A stretch of DNA of 64,000 bases from Dysidea avara. Its lineage: Eukaryota; Porifera; Demospongiae; Dictyoceratida; Dysideidae. Within the stretch, counting starts at the first letter, position 1, and each line of letters begins with the position of its first letter. Made by a program: the position numbers and the translations under genes. The notes under the pieces were generated by a model, which had not been told where the DNA came from, searched no databases, and worked only from the letters and a program-made list of their open reading frames with translations. Positions 5,172-60,930 of the stretch are shown in pieces. The stretch is from NCBI RefSeq assembly GCF_963678975.1, contig NC_089275.1, positions 62,001-126,000 on the forward strand, given 5' to 3'.

Positions 5172-8100
5172 ATGAAGAGGCTGTCAACATGGTCAGGGAT
5201 TGGTAAGTGTGTTACCATGGTGATGCTATGGATATAGTGGTTGCTAAGGCAGCAGTCAGCAAGGCAGTGTCAGAGCAGTCATGTGACCAATGTGGAAATA
5301 TCATCGCTAGCAATTCCACCCTTAGAATGAAGAAGAGAAGACAAAAGAAAAGTTATAATCTTGTAAGTGTAATACACCTGAGCAGGTGAATGCTTTATGT
5401 GGTACATAAATGTCTCACTAGGAGAATTTAAAGTTGGCCTTTTTAAAGAGGTGGCCGCTAAAACAGTTCCATAGCACTATGAGTTCAACTTCATATTGTA
5501 AGGATTCAGTGATAAAATAAAGTGAAACGATAATTTGCGTGGTGGTAGCTTGGATATGGTATTGTGGTGTGGTCACTACCTTCCAGTGGCTTATCTACAG
5601 TAGGGTTTTGTAGGGCCTAGGCCCTCCTAAATTTGGCTAGTGCCCTACCAAACTGAAGACTACTAAACCCACAATCACCAACTTTTCATGGGTCATTGCA
5701 TTGTCTAACAATAGATAGTTACTCTATACTAAATTACTCACCAAAGTATTAATATTGAGCTGTCACGAAGCTAATAAATTATGATGATTCTAATTAACGC
5801 CCATTAATTGAGCATGTGATTGGATCACTTGTTAGTGATATTGATAAGGACGTGTCTTCCTAGTGTTCTTATAGTTCATATCTACAGATCCTTGTAAGAT
5901 TTCATCAGGTTAGGTGTAGTGTTGTCTTGTTCTAATGTTTTTAGTGTTACTGTACAATTTGAACAGGTTAAATATAGCTATATAAACTACTTCATGAAAA
6001 ATCTAAAAGCATGTTTTTTGTAGCTAAAATGGCCTCAGATGCCATTCTGCAGCTGTTGAAATCCATTTTTTTTTCCTGAGGGGAATGCCCCTACCTTCAG
6101 CAGCATATACAGTGCCCTACCAATAGGGAAAGCCTAGATACGCCACTGCTACCTTTTATTGCTGGAACCATATCATAGCTATTATACATGTGTTGCTGTG
6201 ACTGGTTTATCAGGGTATCTCATCTTGAGTGAGCTACAGATTAAGGGGCGTGGTTTGCCTTGTCTTAGTTTTTTGCAGCAAGATTAAAGTTGATTACAGC
6301 TATATCATTGAGGGGAGTGGTCACAGTGTGTTAAGGACATGGCAGCATTTGGGGGCGTGGTTGGCTCATGTGATCATTGTGCAGCTGCACATATCTACTT
6401 AACTGTGCCTCCTCTAAGGGAAGTGCAGAAAATTAATGCCTTGGTATGGTTTCCTTGCCTGAAGAAGAAGACGACTATGTAATTGGAGATTAAAGGAAAG
6501 GCAAAGTGCTGAAGGCAAACACTCGTTGGAACCAGAAAAGGCACATGTCACATTATGGTGGCCATGTGCTGCTTAGTTTAGCCTCTAGCCTAGGCAGGTA
6601 GCAGAAATCAGGTTTTTTTATCCACTATCTGGCCATCTGTGAGCTTTTGAGTTATTCTGATTTTATATATTTCTATGATATGAAGGTTTATGTATTTCTA
6701 TGATGGTTTATGTATTTCTATGTATTTCTATGTGTTTCTAAGATGGTTTATGTATTTCTATGATATGATGGTTTTAACTAGTGATTCAATGATAATAGAT
6801 TTTGTTGATTAGCTGACCAATACCAATAACCGATCCAATTTTTTTTAAACCAAAATTTCACATGTAGTTTGTAAAATTGTTTATTGTCTTACTGTAATTT
6901 CATGAAAACACTGGCATCATGGTCAGTAAAATTAATCAGCTAAATAATCTGCTAATTATTACCAATACCAATATTGCTGAAATATGGCTGATAAACTGAA
7001 ATTTACTCTGCGTGGGCAGTTCAAAGTTGCCGTCAGTACCATAATTTGTATTAGTCTTGCGTTGCCAAACCAATACACGCCAGGTGCTTATCGATATCCT
7101 GATTATAAGCGCCGGCTGTAATTGGTCTGGTGACATTACGACTCCTTACCAGTTCAATAGCGCAGCAAACGGTGTGCAAGCAATTAGTATAAACGGCGCG
7201 CATATATTATTATCCGGCCTTTACCAGGGTTTTACTCCTTAGTGACCATAGCAAATAAGAGGGTGAAACTGCTGAATGAGTAACGCTTGTAGTGGAGACG
7301 CAATAGACAGTGCCATTGACCTAGTAGTGAAGAAGCTTGGTTATGACGGAGTGAAAGATTTGCAGCGTGAAATAATACACGAAGTTGTTGTTGGTCGAGA
7401 TGTGTTCGCTGTATTGTCTACTGGTTACGGGAAGAGTCTGTGTTACGGGTGCCTTCCATTTCTCTTTGATGAAATTTACAAGCCTGATGAGCCAACCATA
7501 GTATGTGTAGTATCACCACTATTAGGAATAATTGAAGACCAGGTATTGTGACTACTAGTAATAGCGAGAGTAATAGCTACCAACTATATTCAGTGTAGCA
7601 ACGTGTCTTTTAGCTATTAATGTGGTAACTGATATCCAGCATGCAATGTTTTAAACGCTTAAGGCTTTTAATTTAGTGCATTAGCTACTTTACAGTGAAT
7701 TTAGCTCAAGATGCCTTGCAGGTGCATTCGTTTTCATCAAAAGGTATACCAACTGGATGTGTGTCAAGTACTTCAAGCAACCTTACAATGGATGGAGTCA
7801 GAAATGCCAAATATCAGCTGGTATTTTTTACCCCAGAAGCAGTGCTGCATGGTAGATGGCGAAAAGTATTGCATAGTGAACCTTATGCAACCAGATTATG
7901 TGTGATGGTGATAGATGAAGCACACACTGTTATCGAATGGTAAGTTATTTAAGAACAATAGTTTTGCTTAGATTATTGGATGGTGTACAGGGGTGATACA
8001 TTTCATTCAGACATGCTAAGATTGGGAGAAATTCGCAGTATTGTTCCAGAAGATGTAAGATTTATGGCCATGACGGAAACAGCATCCAAGGAACTAAGAA

Positions 8101-11100
8101 TGAAGTTGTCATCTACAATTGTTCTTATCAACCCTACAGTGATAGCTATTTCTCCATGCAAGAGTAACATCTCATATAATCTATCCAACTTTACATCCAT
8201 CAGTGAGACTTTTGGTCCAGGTCTCCATGAACTGAGAGGCAAGCTAACATCAATGGACAGAGTCATTATTATATTGTAGAAAGATTGAGGACTGCAGTGA
8301 CCTCTACTGCTTTTTTAAGCGTGGTTTAGGTGACAATTTCACATATCCCTCTGATGCTCCTTGTGAATTGTCAAAATACCGTTTGGTGGATATGTACACA
8401 AGTGTCACTGACCAGGACGTCAAACAGCAGATAATTAAATCATTCAGAAACCCCAGTACACCATTAAGAATGGTATGTGCAACAATTGCATTTGGGATGG
8501 GGATAGATACTCCCGATGTTCACAGAATAATACACTTTGGTGCTCCTAGCCATCTTCACTCTTACATTCAAGAAACTGGAAGAGGTGGCAGAGATGGGAA
8601 GCTGACAGTAGCTACGCTGCTAACTGTAAACAAATACAATAATTCATGCTCAAAACAAATTTTAAGCTACAAAAAGAATGTATCACAATGCCGACAAGAT
8701 TTACTTTTTTGTGACACAGACAGCTATACCATCACCTTGATATGGGTACCAAGTGTTTATGTTGTGACATATGTGCTGTAAACTGTGATTGTGGATCTTG
8801 TACAAATGTATATTCATTTAATCATCATTAATACTGCATATGTTGAATTCTTTATTGTACAGTAAAAAGTATCAATAACAGTTATCACTCTTCAAAGTAA
8901 CAGTTGATATGCTCCTTTACCCATTTCAGTATGTCATCATGTGGCATAGCATGCAAGGGGTCATGTGGCTTCGAAAAAGTCATATATTTCCTTCCAGGGA
9001 TCTTAGTGAGAACAGAAGCATTGTTCAAGCATTTCAATAGGGATTTAAAATCTTGCATGCTTTTTGCTTCTTTATGACTTGTAGATGTTTCAGCCACATG
9101 GTTGTCTTTGTCAAAATTATGCAAAAGTGGATGGACAGTACCCAGAGCACGAGCTACTCTTTCCATTGATTTGGTTGTTTTGTTGGCCTGCAACTGTGCA
9201 ATACTTGTTTTAACCAATTTGTTGAGGTGTTCACAATGTAAATCATTGGGGATGTTTCTCCCAGCCTGTCCATGTGTGTTTACAAATCTGCCCCAGAGCA
9301 GCTCCTCTGCTTGACGTGGACTTAGCAGGTAGTCATACTGCATTAAGAAATTCAAAGTTTCAATGGCATAATTTGTTCTCCCAGAATTAATAAACATTGG
9401 CAGCAGATATCTGTAGCACCTCAAGACACATATTCCATCCCCTTCCTTGATGGCATCCCGGAATTCCAAGTACATGCACCCAATGGTCAATAACCGTGAT
9501 GAATACTGGTATGCCATGTCTTCTGAGGATGCAGTGTGGGAGGTATTGTAATCTGTACAAAGAAATGACTTGACAATGTCTCTTGTAATTCTGTCTAACA
9601 GTGGCTTTCTTTTTCCATCCGTGCATGCCCAGGTGAGATCGCCTTTAGGAGCATACTGCTTAGAGGGAGTATCACTCAGGACTGCATACCTAGCAACTTC
9701 ATAGCTGCCGCAACAACATGTGCTTCAATGACTAAAACGAAGAAGTCTTCACAGGTATCAAACTATCGATTGGCTTGCTCTTAACATTTGTTCTTCCCAA
9801 CAAATTTCTAAGTCGATACAGTGTTCCACGTTGTGATCCAGAGCCAAAAGAATAGTAGTACTTCCATATTAGCTACAAGTAACAGGCACATGCTAATATA
9901 ATCAAATTAAATTCATACATATAAATAGCAACGTTGAAACCGGGTCACCACTGCTGACCCGGATGACCCACTGACCCGGATGTGACCCGGATTGACCTGG
10001 ATGTGACCCGTCGGCTAGTCTCGAGCGAGTGAACGAGTCTACATTTTGAGCGTTTGAATCGTGTTGAGTAAATATTGCAACTTCAGCCTAGCTGTAGGTT
10101 GAAGACCAAAAAAAAAAAAAAAAAAAAGGTCTTTACCTACTGACAATAGCTACCCCTCACCATAGATACCCTCAGTTTCGTGCTACATACTGCACTTACT
10201 AACAGATGGGCGTGACTAAGCATATGTTGGTAATGCGATAAGTGGGCGTGGCTCACGAAAGAGCTACGCGATAGCGTTTATAAGTTCCACGTCGTCAAAC
10301 GAACATTTTCGTTTCTCACGTGATCCAATCCGGGTCAGACCCGGATGACCCGGAGAAAATGTGACCCGGATGACCCGACCCAGTTTCAACGCTGATAAAT
10401 AGTCCTGCATAACGATATTGACGTGTATAAGTCCTATGTAAAAGGTGTAAATAGTAATACTACATATAGTAGAAGGGCAATATATCCAGGAGTCTGACAG
10501 GACCCTGTGTATAGTGTGTATAGCTAACTGGTCATGTACATTTTTATACCATAACTTGTGGTGATGTAGAATTGGTGGATAACATGACCGGAGGCCGATG
10601 CTGCCGCTTTCTTGAAGGTCCACGAGATTCACCAGGAGATGGCCTCCTTTTCCTCCCTTCTTTGCTACGTAGAAGTACGTTGGACTCTTTGTCAGTGTCA
10701 GTGCAACTTCTTGTATACCCAGCTATGTCTTCCAATGAGGCCACGAGTTTCTGGCTAACTGCACATATACGTATGGCAAGTTTGTTATAGCTGTTAAAGC
10801 AAGAACGACACATTCGCAAGTCGGCGGTCTCTGAGCAAGATATTTCATGTCCTTGTCGATGCAAGAGCTCTTTCCAAAGATATAACACTTGTTCACAAGC
10901 TTCGCTGTTGTCCCCTTTGTAGTCAGTGCCAAGGTTTCTTCTTATCTTTGGTGTTTTCGTAATATCTAACCCACAGCCAAAGCAAATAACTGGCCGTGCA
11001 ATGTAGGGGCTACCTACACTTCCCTAGTTACAAGTGAAGTATCTATGGAAAGCATCGCTACCGCCATAGTTATAATGCGCATGCGTTACATTCCAGTGGA

Positions 11101-11670
11101 ACTGGTAATGAGTGGTAATGTCACCAGACCAATTACAGCCAGCCCTTATAATCAGGATATCGATAAGCGCCTGGCGTGTATTGGTTTGGCAACGCGAGAC
11201 TAAATTTGTATATGGCACTGTTGCAGACCGCAGCCCTGCCTGTTTAAACACACTAATGCCCGTTGTATAACTATATATTAACAAACAGTATAGTGGAATT
11301 ATATCTTCACACTCATATTCAGTATTTAGTGGGCTGTAGGTTCCCTAAGACCCTTAACTATAGAGAGACCCATAAAGTGTAAAATCTTAATGTAGTCCAA
11401 TCCATAGTTCCAGTACGAATAATTTTAACAATATTCGCTAATTATATTATGATTGTTTGTCAATAGAGGGTGACCTGCAAGTTGTGCCAGAGCAAGTTTG
11501 ATAAGATTACCATGACAACAGTGTCACAACCAGCAGCCAGACCACACCATCCAGTGAATAAGTCACGCTACCAGTTGAAAGCCGCAGTGCTTAAAAAGAA
11601 ACCTAAATTAACAATGACCAGTCCATCAATTAATTTAAGAGATTTTCTGTGTGAAACAACAACAAAATAG
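5172..11670 (+). CDS. UPF0711/C18orf21-like zinc-ribbon protein (spliced)
   Basis: Three exons join in phase: 5,172-5,202, 5,238-5,362 and 11,467-11,670 (stop TAG), giving about 119 codons. The second exon has CDQCG followed by a basic stretch (MKKRRQKKSYNL); the last exon has CKLCQSKF and ends NLRDFLCETTTK. Two CxxC pairs plus a C-terminal SxxxLRDFL-like motif match the layout I recall for vertebrate C18orf21 (UPF0711), a zinc-ribbon family related to RNase P subunit Rpp21. The protein is shorter than its vertebrate counterpart, so a middle exon may be missing from my model. The 6.1-kb last intron carries the RecQ/DUF6589 transposon and a 565-bp MITE. Splice junctions and shared CxxC spacing are seen; the family name is from memory. 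Confidence 0.5.
5584..6148. mobile_element. hAT-like MITE, 8-bp TSD
   Basis: Begins CAGTGGCTTATCTAC and ends GATACGCCACTG, an imperfect TIR of the CAGTGGCGTA type. Flanks CTACCTTC (5,576-5,583) and CTACCTTT (6,149-6,156) form an 8-bp duplication with one mismatch. No transposase. It lies in the intron of the UPF0711-like gene. Confidence 0.75.
6788..6990. repeat. Degenerate CCGATACC-type element relic
   Basis: Contains ACCAATACCAATAACCGATC near the left and ACCAATACCAATATTGCTGA near the right, resembling the 3,124-3,760 element interior. Ends and TSD not resolvable. Confidence 0.4.
7276..8831 (+). pseudogene. RecQ-like DNA helicase, decayed, transposon-borne
   Basis: Exons 7,276-7,542, 7,722-7,939 and 7,991-8,831 join in phase at both introns (GIIEDQ|VHSFSS; IE-W|GDTF). 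RecQ-type motifs appear in order: Walker A as STGYGKSLCYG, motif Ia region VVSPLLG, DEAH box VIDEAHTVIEWGD, motif III MTETAS, motif V AFGMGIDTPDVHRIIHFGAP, motif VI QETGRGGRDG. The product would be a 3'-5' superfamily-2 helicase. No HRDC or full RQC domain follows; instead a cysteine-rich tail (CLCCDIC, CDCGSC) ends at 8,831. Two frameshifts break the last exon: near 8,272, where motif IV should read VIIYC, and near 8,735, before the cysteine-rich tail. It starts about 110 bp inside the left TIR and converges on the DUF6589 gene. Could alternatively be an assembly with indel errors, since splice sites are intact. Confidence 0.85.
8885..11013 (-). pseudogene. DUF6589 family protein, decayed, transposon-borne
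   Basis: Read on the minus strand. An N-terminal exon (11,013 to about 10,550) carries CFGCG and, some 60 residues on, CRSCF, a likely zinc-binding pair, then a basic tail. A long 3' exon (9,876-8,885) carries GSGSQRGTLYRLRN, FVLVIEAHVVAAAM, DAIKEGDG and GRNIPNDLHCEHLN, hallmarks I recognise from DUF6589 proteins of sponges, cnidarians and fungi. Function of the family is not established; a transposase-like role is an inference from its position in a TIR element. Frameshifts lie near 9,763 and 9,681. The intron between the exons contains a 466-bp MITE, and compared with full-length relatives a large central portion seems missing. The start codon exon is not certain. Confidence 0.8.
9929..10394. 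mobile_element. hAT-like MITE nested in the DUF6589 intron
   Basis: Ends CAACGTTGAAACCGGGTCA and TGACCCGACCCAGTTTCAAC-GCTG are inverted. ATAAATAG occurs directly outside both ends (9,921-9,928; 10,395-10,402), an 8-bp TSD. The subterminal zones are full of GACCCGGATG repeats, and an A-tract lies near 10,110. A diverged second copy is seen at 58,505-58,757. Confidence 0.85.
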
Positions 11671-18700: not shown

Positions 18701-21700
18701 TGATTTATCGGTCACAGCGTCAAACTACCCCCTCAGTTTATGAGCCATCCCTGGATCACCTGATCATTGCACCATCACCTGATCCATCAGGACACTCTGT
18801 CAGCTGCTCGGTAAGGGGTGTGTCCTCTTCTGCTCATGTGATCCTTGTTACTTGTAGCCTGAAGACTCGGACAGTGATAGTATTGATGCTGGACGACCAG
18901 TATCCTATATGTTGACTGATGGTGAGTATGCAAAACAGTATAGTAGTAGTAATAGATTTCCCTTCTAAAATTAATGTTGGATGCTAAAATGCTGCCTTTT
19001 ATATATATTTTTTATTTTATTGCCAGTATTTAATATTTGGTTTGCCAACCTGATCACATTTGCAAAGGCTAGAGCAACTCATGGTCATCATTTTATTCCA
19101 CAATAACAAGCTCACATGTGTCATGTACTCTTTCTAGTTCTGATGAGTGTCTGCCTTCTGTGTGCTTGCCTTTCATTTGATCATGGTCAACTTCTTCATG
19201 CAACGAAGCGATATTGAGATGTTAATTTTCCATATCAAACATTAGAAAAAATGTACCACTAGGCTACTGTAAGAGAGAGTAGATACCTGTAGCTACACTC
19301 GGTGATAACCACTAGACTACTGTAAGAGAGAGTAGATACCTGTAGCTACACTCGGTGATAACCACTAGACTACTGTAAGAGAGAGTAGATACCTGTAGCT
19401 ACACTCGGTGATAACCACTAGACTACTGTAAGAGAGAGTAGATACCTGTAGCTACACTCGGTGATAACCACTAGACTACTGTAAGAGAGAGTAGATACCT
19501 GTAGCTACACTCGGTGATAACCACTAGACTACTGTAAGAGAGAGTAGATACCTGTAGCTACACTCGGTGATAACCACTACACTACTGTAAGAGAGAGTAG
19601 ATACCTGTAGCTACACTTGGTGATAACCACTACACTACTGTAAGAGAGAGTAGATACCTGTAGCTACACTCAGTGATAACCATGCCCTTCAGCATTCTGC
19701 CACACCCTTAGGCTTAGAACATAGCTATCACTTATCTACGTTGCTGCAATCATCTGCAGTTGCTGTAGACATGGTAACCACGTTCCTTAATCTATTCCAT
19801 AGCTTAAATACGTAAGTAGAGAGAGTAAACCAGTCACTGCCACATGTTTGTGTCATAGCTATGCTAGTGGATTTAGCAATTTTAGATAAAAAGTAGTGAA
19901 ACAAGATTTAGAGTTATAGCTTGGGGGAAATCCCTACTTCAGCAAATGGTGGTAACATGCCAACGTAGAAGTTATTACAGAAGCGAAACATGAAGTGATA
20001 AAAAGAGATAGCCACTGCATCTTCTAGCAGCACTGCTAGATTGATTGGTATAAAGTGATACCTTGTTCACAAGCCCATCCATTGCTCAATCTGACAAAGC
20101 AAAGCTCCTCGCGATTAGATGTTCGCTAGCCTGAGGTGTAAAAGAATTAACCGTAACATATATGTCCTCTTCCTCATGGGCGGCAGCAACAATTATTATG
20201 TTTTTTAAAGGTGGGACACCTCAGGGTAAGAAACACTGCCCTCAAGGTAAGACACCTCCTATAAGTTGCCATAATTCTCACATGCTTCAGTTGATTCCCA
20301 AATTTGAAGGTTGCTAGTAGTACCAAGCTACATCACCTACCACAGATTGGCCACTTGCAGTAGTGAGAGCAATCACATGTGAGATAGTAAGTACTCTAAT
20401 AGGACAGTCACATGTGATGGTAAATACTCTAATAAAGCAGTCATTATATTTAGCAAGCAATAATGAAGTTATAAATTAACATCATCCTTGACTATTATTT
20501 GTAATACTTCCAACTCCAGCAATGGTCTGCAGTAGGCCGATGTGTCTGTAACTCATGTGACCCATATAAGGTGATCCATAATCTATTTTTATTCTAGCTG
20601 GTAAGAACATCTGGGAGGAAGGACCAGACAGTGAAGACAACTTGCAATTTGATCGTCGCAAGTTCCCCTACCAGGTATATAGTATTCCCTCGATTAGAGG
20701 AGGCTGGTCACAGATTTCTAAAATTATAACAAATTGTATATGTGTCCCAGATCCCTTACAAACCTTCTCAACATAATGCAAACTAACTACTTAACCCCAG
20801 GTGCCATATTTGGTAATGTAATCACACATCAAAGGGTAATGACCAGCCTCCTCTGCCCTCCCTTTGTTAGCAATGTCCGTTATAACCACTCCCCCCTCAA
20901 GGTGTCTGCTGCCACTTTCAATAAACTGGTAGAGAAGCTGACTGCTCCTAAGGATCATGGTATGGTAGCTCCCTGTGTTGCCGCCATTACACTGTCTCCC
21001 TGTAGATATGATCTTTGTAAAGACCTTTCTGCTTAGCTACCAATCCTTCACTACACCTGACAAGTTATTACACAAACTAATTGAGCGATACAACGTGGTA
21101 CGACCTGAGGGCATGGGACTGCAGCAGTTTGAGGCCATCAGGACTACAATACAGGTACGTGCTGTATATTTGTGAGTGTATGTGTCTGTGCATGTATGTG
21201 TGTGTGTGCTTGCACGTTTGTTTGCAAGCAATATACAGCTTATGGTCAGAGATTCACAGCTTATGGTCAGAGAGTCACAATGGTAAAATCGACTGGTGTG
21301 CTACAAACTACCCATGTGAAGTGTTGGTTAGATAACAAGGCAATAGTATAATTCGTAAAGAAATGATACAAGACATAGCTACTTAAAACCTTGCCTCAAA
21401 ATGACCATTGTGAAACTATTATTGAAGACATTTTGTTATATTATCTATAGGTGTGTGATAGTGTCCATAACACACACACACACACACACACAATGTTGGA
21501 TCACATGATCCTTTGTACAGGTTAGAGTGATCAATGCTATCAGATTATGGCTGGAGATGGCTATAGACTTTAAAGGTAAACGTTATTATATACTAATTAG
21601 TGATTGACTAGCTTGTGTGCTACTATATAGACAATGGTGTGCTCCAATCAGAATTACTACACTTCATCACGTCAGTATTAACAGTTGATCATCCTAAACA

Positions 21701-22972: not shown

Positions 22973-23935
22973 TGTCATCACTGTGTCACATGATCTCATT
23001 GTATATTATAAAGTACTTTATTTTGTATCTTCATATATTTCATAATATTTGTATATTTTCTCTTATATTTCATTTTTACTCCATGAACAACTGCAGACCT
23101 GGCCTACACTAGCAAAAATTAATGATTGTGGTAGTGAACTAGCATATGCTTGTAGGCACTTAGTGATGATTTTCATTCACAATTGTCAGAGTGTGTAGTT
23201 TGTATCGAGGTTTATATAACATTTTGTGTGATACAGGACAGCTTCACCTAGCCAGTCAAGTCTTCCCTTATGGTAGATTCATGATGATCATGATCAGGTA
23301 TTGAGAACCCTTTATTGGGTTTGACTTGTCATCACCAGACCAACTTGTAGTGGTGCAGTGAAACCATAAATATAACTACCTCCCAAAGTCTAGTTACTGG
23401 GGATTAAATAATAAACCGCAGTTGATCAAGTATAATAATAGATGCTGCGTAGTCGTTTGTTGTTTCATGATCAGTTGTATAGCATTCAACACTTATATTA
23501 TTGGGCTGGGGTGTATTAATCACTGCATCTCTGCAGACGACCATGTAGCTGTGTCAGAAATTCACAGCTTATGGTCAGAGAGTCACAATGGTAAAATCTA
23601 CTGTGCTACAAACTACCTGTGTGAAGTGCTGGTTGGATAACAAGGCTCTGATAGAGCAGTCACAGTTATTAGAGCAGTGTGTAGTGAGCCATGTAAAGAT
23701 AATTATTTTATGTACATCATCAGTGATAAAATGCGTAGTTGGTGAGGTGGGTAGCTATTGTTAGCTGGCTGTGACTTTGAGCTCACCTTACCAAATTAGA
23801 CAATGTAGTGCCATGCCATTTCATTTTAACCCTCCTTTTCCAAAAGTCTGGATCCCCCCTGGCCTATACCACTGCTCATGTTTTGTGTGAGGGTAACTTC
23901 ACTTATAACGTAACAACAAAGTTTTGCACTTAGTA
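22973..23935. other. Downstream of RasGEF; repeat copy, no gene
   Basis: A second copy of the 21,228 repeat lies at 23,555-23,650, followed by a variant of the dispersed motif (CTCTGATAGAGCAGTCACAG) at about 23,645. No exon identified; the RasGEF 3' UTR is presumably at the left. Confidence 0.5.
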
Positions 23936-24803
23936 CAGTCAAAAATGGCAATTCCGTGACCACTCTTCGGCTAACAATGTTTTGATGATTGATTTCACTT
24001 CTTGGGGTCATTTATTGAAAATTTAGCTCCCGGGTCCCTCCCAAAGGTCCCGGCATTTTTTGCCATGGCACGAAATTTAAAATTGCTGCTAGCGCAACCT
24101 AAAATCAGGGTATGCTGTGTACAATAGTGCACAAAGACACTTTAGGATAAATAAACCTCAAGGATTCCAATTATCAGTGGAATTAGTTTCATGCTATGAC
24201 CTTTATCGGACCCAATAATCAATAATAGTTTCAATTGGAAGAGCGAAAAAGTGTAAAATCAAGGTAAATGCTTCAGTATAATTATACATGTAGAAACTTC
24301 AAGATGAAACTTGCACATTTAGCAGTATGTGCATAATCATGCAGGAATATTGAGATTTAGTATAAATACAGATTTTTTTGAGCCACTAGCTGTAGTTTAG
24401 TCAGTTTAAATTGTCAATTTGGGTAAGTCACCTTTTATAATACAAGAATTTGTGGTACTAACTGCTATACTCTTAGCCCTCTGATAAGAAACACCAAAAA
24501 GCACATTATTTTTGCAGCTGCATCAAGAAAAGGTATGTGGACTAAATGGTTATTTTGGTACTATAGTTAAGCCCATTTTGGCCATAACATGTAGATTGTA
24601 ACAAGAATAATGGAAACAGCTGAAGTACCATGCATGCTTTAGTGTGGTGAACCTTGTAATCCAGCCACGGATTCCATTGATTCCATTGAGAGGTGCAGGC
24701 AAAAGGCTCTCCTCTGGAAAGGTCTTGACAAGTTTGGAAGTGTTCATGAATGCGTAGATTAGGTAAAAGCTCCAGTTGGACACTTTATTCATGATTCCTG
24801 CAG

Positions 24804-25262: not shown

Positions 25263-25449
25263 AAGGTGTCTTTGTGCACTATTGTACACAGCATACCCTG
25301 ATTTTAGGTTGCGCTAGCAACAATTTTAAATTTTGCACTATGGCAAAAAATGCCTGGACCTTTGGGAGGGACCTGGGAGCTAAATTTTCAATAAATGACC
25401 CCAAGAAGTGAAATCAATCATCAAAACATGTTAGCCGAAGAGTGGTCAC

Positions 25450-59892: not shown

Positions 59893-60295
59893 TCGTCTGA
59901 AAAGTGAAGCATCCATTACGCTTCGTTGTCAGCTATGTTGAACCCATTACACAGCATTTTGGATCTAGAACTGTTCAAAAAGCACCTCTGCAATCTATAC
60001 ATACCGAAAGAAATGGTGCCGCATGCCCCAGTTATAACAATTATCGTCTGAAAAGTGAAGCATCCATTACGCTTCGTTGTCAGCTATGTTGAACCCGTTA
60101 CACAGCATTTCGGATCTAGAACTGTTCAAAAAGCACCTCTGCAATCTATACATACCGAAAGAAATGGTGCCGCATGCCCCAGTTATAACAATTATCGTCT
60201 GAAAAGTGAAGTATTCATTACGCCTTGTTGTCGGCTGTGTTCAACCCGTTACACAGCAATACGAATTGAAAACTGTTCGAAAAGCACCTCTGCAA
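59893..60295. repeat. 151-bp tandem array
   Basis: Units beginning ATTATCGTCTGAAAAGTGAA start near 59,893, 60,044 and 60,195, almost identical for the first two. Diverged reverse-complement copies are at 62,120-62,390. Frames through it are shadows. Confidence 0.93.
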
Positions 60296-60930
60296 TCAAA
60301 ACAGCCACTATGAAAAATACAAATGATTTCCATTATGAAGGGAAGCCATCATGTGCTATCGTCAAATTGACACTTTTTGCTGTCAGCAAAGATTAATGGG
60401 ACACAAAGGAGGACACTGGTAAGTCCATGAAGAATGCATTGTACGTACTGCAGTATGCCAAAAAGCACCTCTCAGGCCGAAGCAACATCAAACAGTGAAA
60501 AAATCAAGCCCATAGCCTTAGCCATTATCAAGTTACACTTGTCTGAATGCATCAGTCAGTCAGTCAGTCAGTCAGTCAGGCAGTCAGTCAGTTAGTAGAA
60601 AATTCTGTTAAATAAATTATTTTTTAAATTCCGTAACAACTTGTTGAAAGCGTTTCTGGTCGATCTTGAAGGTTTGTTTGGGCTTAGTTTTACCTAACCA
60701 ATACTGCCTCGTTGTCATCAGGGAAAATTGAGGCTGGTTTTTGGGGATGTTATTTCATGGGCCACGCCTACTCCTCCATAACAGCTTGGCAGTATTGGCT
60801 AGACAAAGCCAAGCCCAAAAAATGTTTTCAGACGCACTCTGAACCCTTCCAGCAAGTTTCTACGAATTTATTATTTTTAATTGTATTTGGGGCGAGCCTG
60901 AGCAAGCCCCACAAATGGCAGTAGTCACTT

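Follow-up and report, generated by a model that had tools for sequence, protein, structure and literature searches.

The Academ superfamily of transposons reportedly includes a lineage, AcademH, described by Kojima in 2020 (Mob DNA 11:15) and placed in animals and fungi by the title of that paper. According to PMC10045372, which cites Kojima 2020, AcademH elements encode a helicase and have target-site duplications (TSDs) of 9 or 10 bp, whereas AcademX, the sister lineage in Academ, has a nuclease and TSDs of 3-4 bp, a difference apparently related to the encoded helicase or nuclease. AcademH has been recorded in Basidiomycota, Ascomycota and Mucoromycota among the fungi (PMC10799480), and "RecQ Helicase in Academ" is stated in PMC3627910. 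RecQ helicases are also carried by KolobokH and Kolobok-1_CCri and, on the complementary strand, by a red-alga Kolobok element (PMC9587614). Here we analyze a 64,000-nucleotide stretch of the genome of the sponge Dysidea avara (contig NC_089275.1, positions 62,001 to 126,000; hereafter the window) that contains what is, with high probability, a decayed AcademH-type cut-and-paste transposon, in which a DUF6589 protein would be the transposase and is accompanied by a RecQ-like helicase.

The element spans positions 7052-11202 of the window (4,151 bp) and contains the helicase gene (+ strand) and the DUF6589 gene (- strand) in convergent orientation. Its terminal inverted repeats (TIRs), at 7052-7155 (+ strand, beginning 5'-TAGTCTTGCGTTGCC) and 11099-11202 (- strand), align without gaps over 104 bp at 94% identity, start with 5'-TAGTCTyGCG, and are bordered by the 9-bp TSD AATTTGTAT, which is present without mismatch at 7043-7051 and 11203-11211. 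The inverted ends of about 110 bp and the perfect 9-bp duplication reported in an earlier note on this DNA are therefore real. The terminal 20 bases, sought with at most three mismatches, occur at only two places in the window, the two element ends, against a chance expectation of 0.02 matches.

A search of the 550.8-Mb assembly (108 contigs) with the left TIR scored 40 places among 96 candidates, so that the copy number is a lower bound, and these places resolved into 28 loci, 17 of them with a complete TIR pair. Left out of the latter count were L017, L028 and L033, whose ends are incomplete or odd, and L021, L023, L027, L030, L031, L032, L034 and L037, with one TIR each. Eleven of the 17 pairs are flanked by exact TSDs, with a match length of precisely 9 bp and never longer or shorter, while three have a TSD with one mismatch and three have none. 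Three TIR-flanked copies of unequal lengths (L011, L012 and L013; C2, 36.63-36.79 Mb) lie at a single target site, and this shared site makes it probable that the locus became duplicated once the element had inserted; the 11 exact TSDs therefore represent nine independent insertions. No target-site consensus was plain by eye in the flanks of the TIR pairs. Both genes were present at four of the 28 loci (the window, L009/L010, L030 and L032), in the same convergent arrangement and matching the window by 93-96% over stretches of 2.6-2.9 kb, a linkage within a TIR- and TSD-bounded family that the earlier note had anticipated. Among these four, only the window combines a complete TIR pair with a TSD: at L009/L010 (10.2 kb) the complete pair lacks a TSD, and L030 and L032 each have one TIR within the 10 kb examined. 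The DUF6589 frames are broken in the window, L009, L030 and L032 alike.

The assignment of DUF6589 as the transposase draws on its relatives. A protein search with the L030 reading returned, from 7998 candidates, at least 65 proteins with E values up to 0.01. Alignment A6 drew on 52 of 72 returned proteins (P0002-P0073). Proteins with PF20231 were found in sponges, Clytia and Mycena, as proteins only and not as whole elements with helicase and TIRs, and Dendronephthya has a related protein that lacks a Pfam DUF6589 match. The predicted fold of DUF6589 is RNase H-like with a helical insertion and matches the solved hAT (Hermes), P element and Transib/RAG1 structures, the fold alignments having 7-13% sequence identity. 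The conserved D, D and E are D434, D606 and E856 in P0010; we take E856 to be the catalytic Glu from range offsets and residue numbers, with D781 and D787 as alternative candidates. The Pfam DUF6589 match of P0010 begins at 485, past D434, and among four pieces of L030 two matched DUF6589, one of these below the cut-off, and the GDNID piece had no match. Plain Foldseek had no match at E <= 0.001 in the PDB or among viral models, and the only row from a PDB sequence search with alignment A6 was an aminotransferase at chance level (E 0.044). A first AlphaFold2 model (Clytia P0006, 6-row alignment) was set aside with a mean predicted local distance difference test score of 34.7. The predicted fold and the conserved residues together suggest that DUF6589 resembles a DDE transposase, the role suggested for it in the earlier note, which had proposed looking for just such an RNase H-like core.

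In the window copy this gene is heavily damaged. Its match to DUF6589 (PF20231; E 2.2e-29) covers profile positions 233-410 of 410, and the alignable protein reaches approximately 9875 in broken frames. The later part (8885-9875, - strand) has at least two frame breaks between about 9620 and 9770 and includes the Glu of DLxxEHLN at codon 9230-9232, and the Cys-rich N-terminal part (CxxC ... CxxC; 10547-11023, - strand) has no Pfam match of its own. The catalytic first part is absent: at a deletion junction at 10507-10511, approximately 1.83 kb of L030 (776-2606) is missing, including the exons with GDNID and GGDQLT that hold the first two catalytic-type Asp residues. The gene is also split by a nested 466-bp insertion (9929-10394) with an 8-bp duplication, ATAAATAG, which is absent from L009, L030 and L032; with inverted ends of about 21 bp and repeated words of the GACCCGGAT type, it resembles a short hAT-type element. 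By arithmetic, the element without this insertion and deletion would measure about 5.5 kb, and the nearness of this size to the mean of 5,565 bp for Academ elements of bivalves (PMC10294476) is no test. The window copy is unable to make an active transposase itself and, like the 0.45-kb copies, would need an outside source.

The + strand gene matches the Pfam domains DEAD (E 1.3e-18) and Helicase_C (E 1.4e-12) and the TIGR00614 model (E 5.1e-60; 203.6 bits, under the curated cut-off of 219.8), and RecQ, WRN and BLM are its best relatives among solved structures. Three exons, with borders set by inspection of the sequence, lie at 7276-7542 (DEAD domain, with the ATP-binding motif TGYGKS), 7722-7939 (DEAH box; flanking introns GT-AG) and 7991-8781 (Helicase_C by Pfam), the last with its frame broken near 8266-8281, where the reading frame of the C15 copy remains open. 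For L030 and L032, the helicase is known only from tblastn pieces. Domain matches thus confirm both genes named in the earlier note, RecQ-like (+) and DUF6589 (-), and neither of them is intact.

Taken together, the borders, TSDs and predicted fold support a D-D-E transposase whose cuts fall at the TIRs and which joins the element to its target with a 9-bp stagger. In the mechanism we propose, DUF6589, with an RNase H-like D-D-E core and a large helical insertion domain like those of hAT, P and RAG/Transib enzymes, would cut at the TIRs, to which its Cys-rich N-terminal part probably binds, and would join the element to its target with the 9-bp stagger that, after repair, would become the 9-bp TSD. 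The RecQ-like protein is plausibly an accessory factor, which would probably unwind cut ends or repair intermediates. Hairpin formation on excision is known for hAT and RAG; that it might occur here is a guess from the predicted fold only. We know of no test of the role of a RecQ helicase in cut-and-paste transposition, for which a family with many short copies in one genome would provide a test bed.

Because its helicase and 9-bp TSD fit the published statements on AcademH, the element is very likely a member of that lineage, as judged from published features and not from sequence comparison. This kind of element is itself already published, and the possibly undescribed group raised in the earlier note is not supported, given AcademH with its helicase and TSDs of 9-10 bp (PMC10045372). 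Similarly, the view that RecQ is unusual cargo for cut-and-paste elements did not hold, as RecQ has been published for KolobokH (PMC9587614) and for Academ (PMC3627910); since it is known from KolobokH, it is not foreign to such elements. Two points weigh slightly against our interpretation: the fold comparison comes with a caution, given by the tool, about helical models, and PMC3627910 credits its statement on Academ to Kapitonov et al., while the accessible part of its reference 34 (PMC3520738) is without such words.

An unlikely alternative is that the element represents an unnamed, RecQ-carrying DUF6589-type transposon group that is kin to Academ but outside it. This would be consistent with an AcademH identity drawn from published features and with a literature search that returned no paper on DUF6589 and none on the subject for PF20231; however, the helicase and the 9-bp TSD match what is published for AcademH, and the animal and fungal range of DUF6589 proteins would be in keeping with it. 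Because no such papers were found, the link of DUF6589 to the hAT/P/RAG-like DDE fold may be unrecorded within the literature searched. It is far less probable that the TIRs belong to another transposon that captured both genes by chance. Eleven of the 17 measured pairs are only 432-457 bp long, L011, L012, L013 and L035 (1.9-3.4 kb) have TIRs and no match to either gene, and no intact two-gene copy was found among the 28 loci, all of which would suit such a capture, but the recurrence of the same two convergent genes at four closely similar loci and the transposase-like predicted fold of DUF6589 itself argue against it. A Kolobok origin, either KolobokH-like or resembling the red-alga element with its RecQ on the complementary strand, is barely credible despite the RecQ genes of those lineages, since the Kolobok target duplication is TTAA whereas the TSDs of this family are 9 bp of varied sequence, and the sole transposon-type Pfam domain in four window pieces is DUF6589.

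Beyond this locus, it is rather likely, if less firmly so than for the window element, that the DUF6589 proteins of sponges, cnidarians and a fungus are AcademH-type transposases, structurally DDE enzymes of the hAT/P/Transib/RAG1 class with a RecQ helicase partner. If true, the group that gave rise to the V(D)J recombinase would gain a helicase-coupled branch. The predicted fold offers a likely function for DUF6589, a domain without an assigned function in databases, and ties it to a transposase fold and a named transposon lineage; genomes with DUF6589 genes could therefore be re-annotated as transposon-carrying.

Other repeats were observed in the window. Inverted repeats of 167 nucleotides at 23977-24143 and 25263-25429 (95% complementary, 1.1 kb apart) may mark a second transposon, a pair of adjoining direct repeats, alike at 96% and 91%, at 21245-21341 and 23553-23646 has a spacing of about 2.3 kb, and several inverted repeats at 1150-1631 and 60241-60745, with arms 58-59 kb apart and 78-91% alike, place related repeats near both window ends. 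Separately, the predicted protein P0067 combines an exon of the GGDQLT type with an rva_4 integrase core domain, perhaps a transposon inside a transposon.

Compared with known systems, the window element shares with AcademH a helicase gene and a 9-bp TSD and differs in being a broken copy, the likeness being one of published features. Its helicase and 9-bp TSD set it apart from AcademX, which has a nuclease (XPG) and a 3-4-bp TSD. KolobokH and Kolobok-1_CCri also carry a RecQ helicase, but with a Kolobok transposase. With hAT (Hermes), the P element and Transib/RAG1, DUF6589 shares the predicted catalytic fold with its helical insertion and the D-D-E order; TSDs are 8 bp long in hAT and P and 5 bp in Transib, and the 9-bp TSD of the window family departs from the 8-bp rule of hAT.
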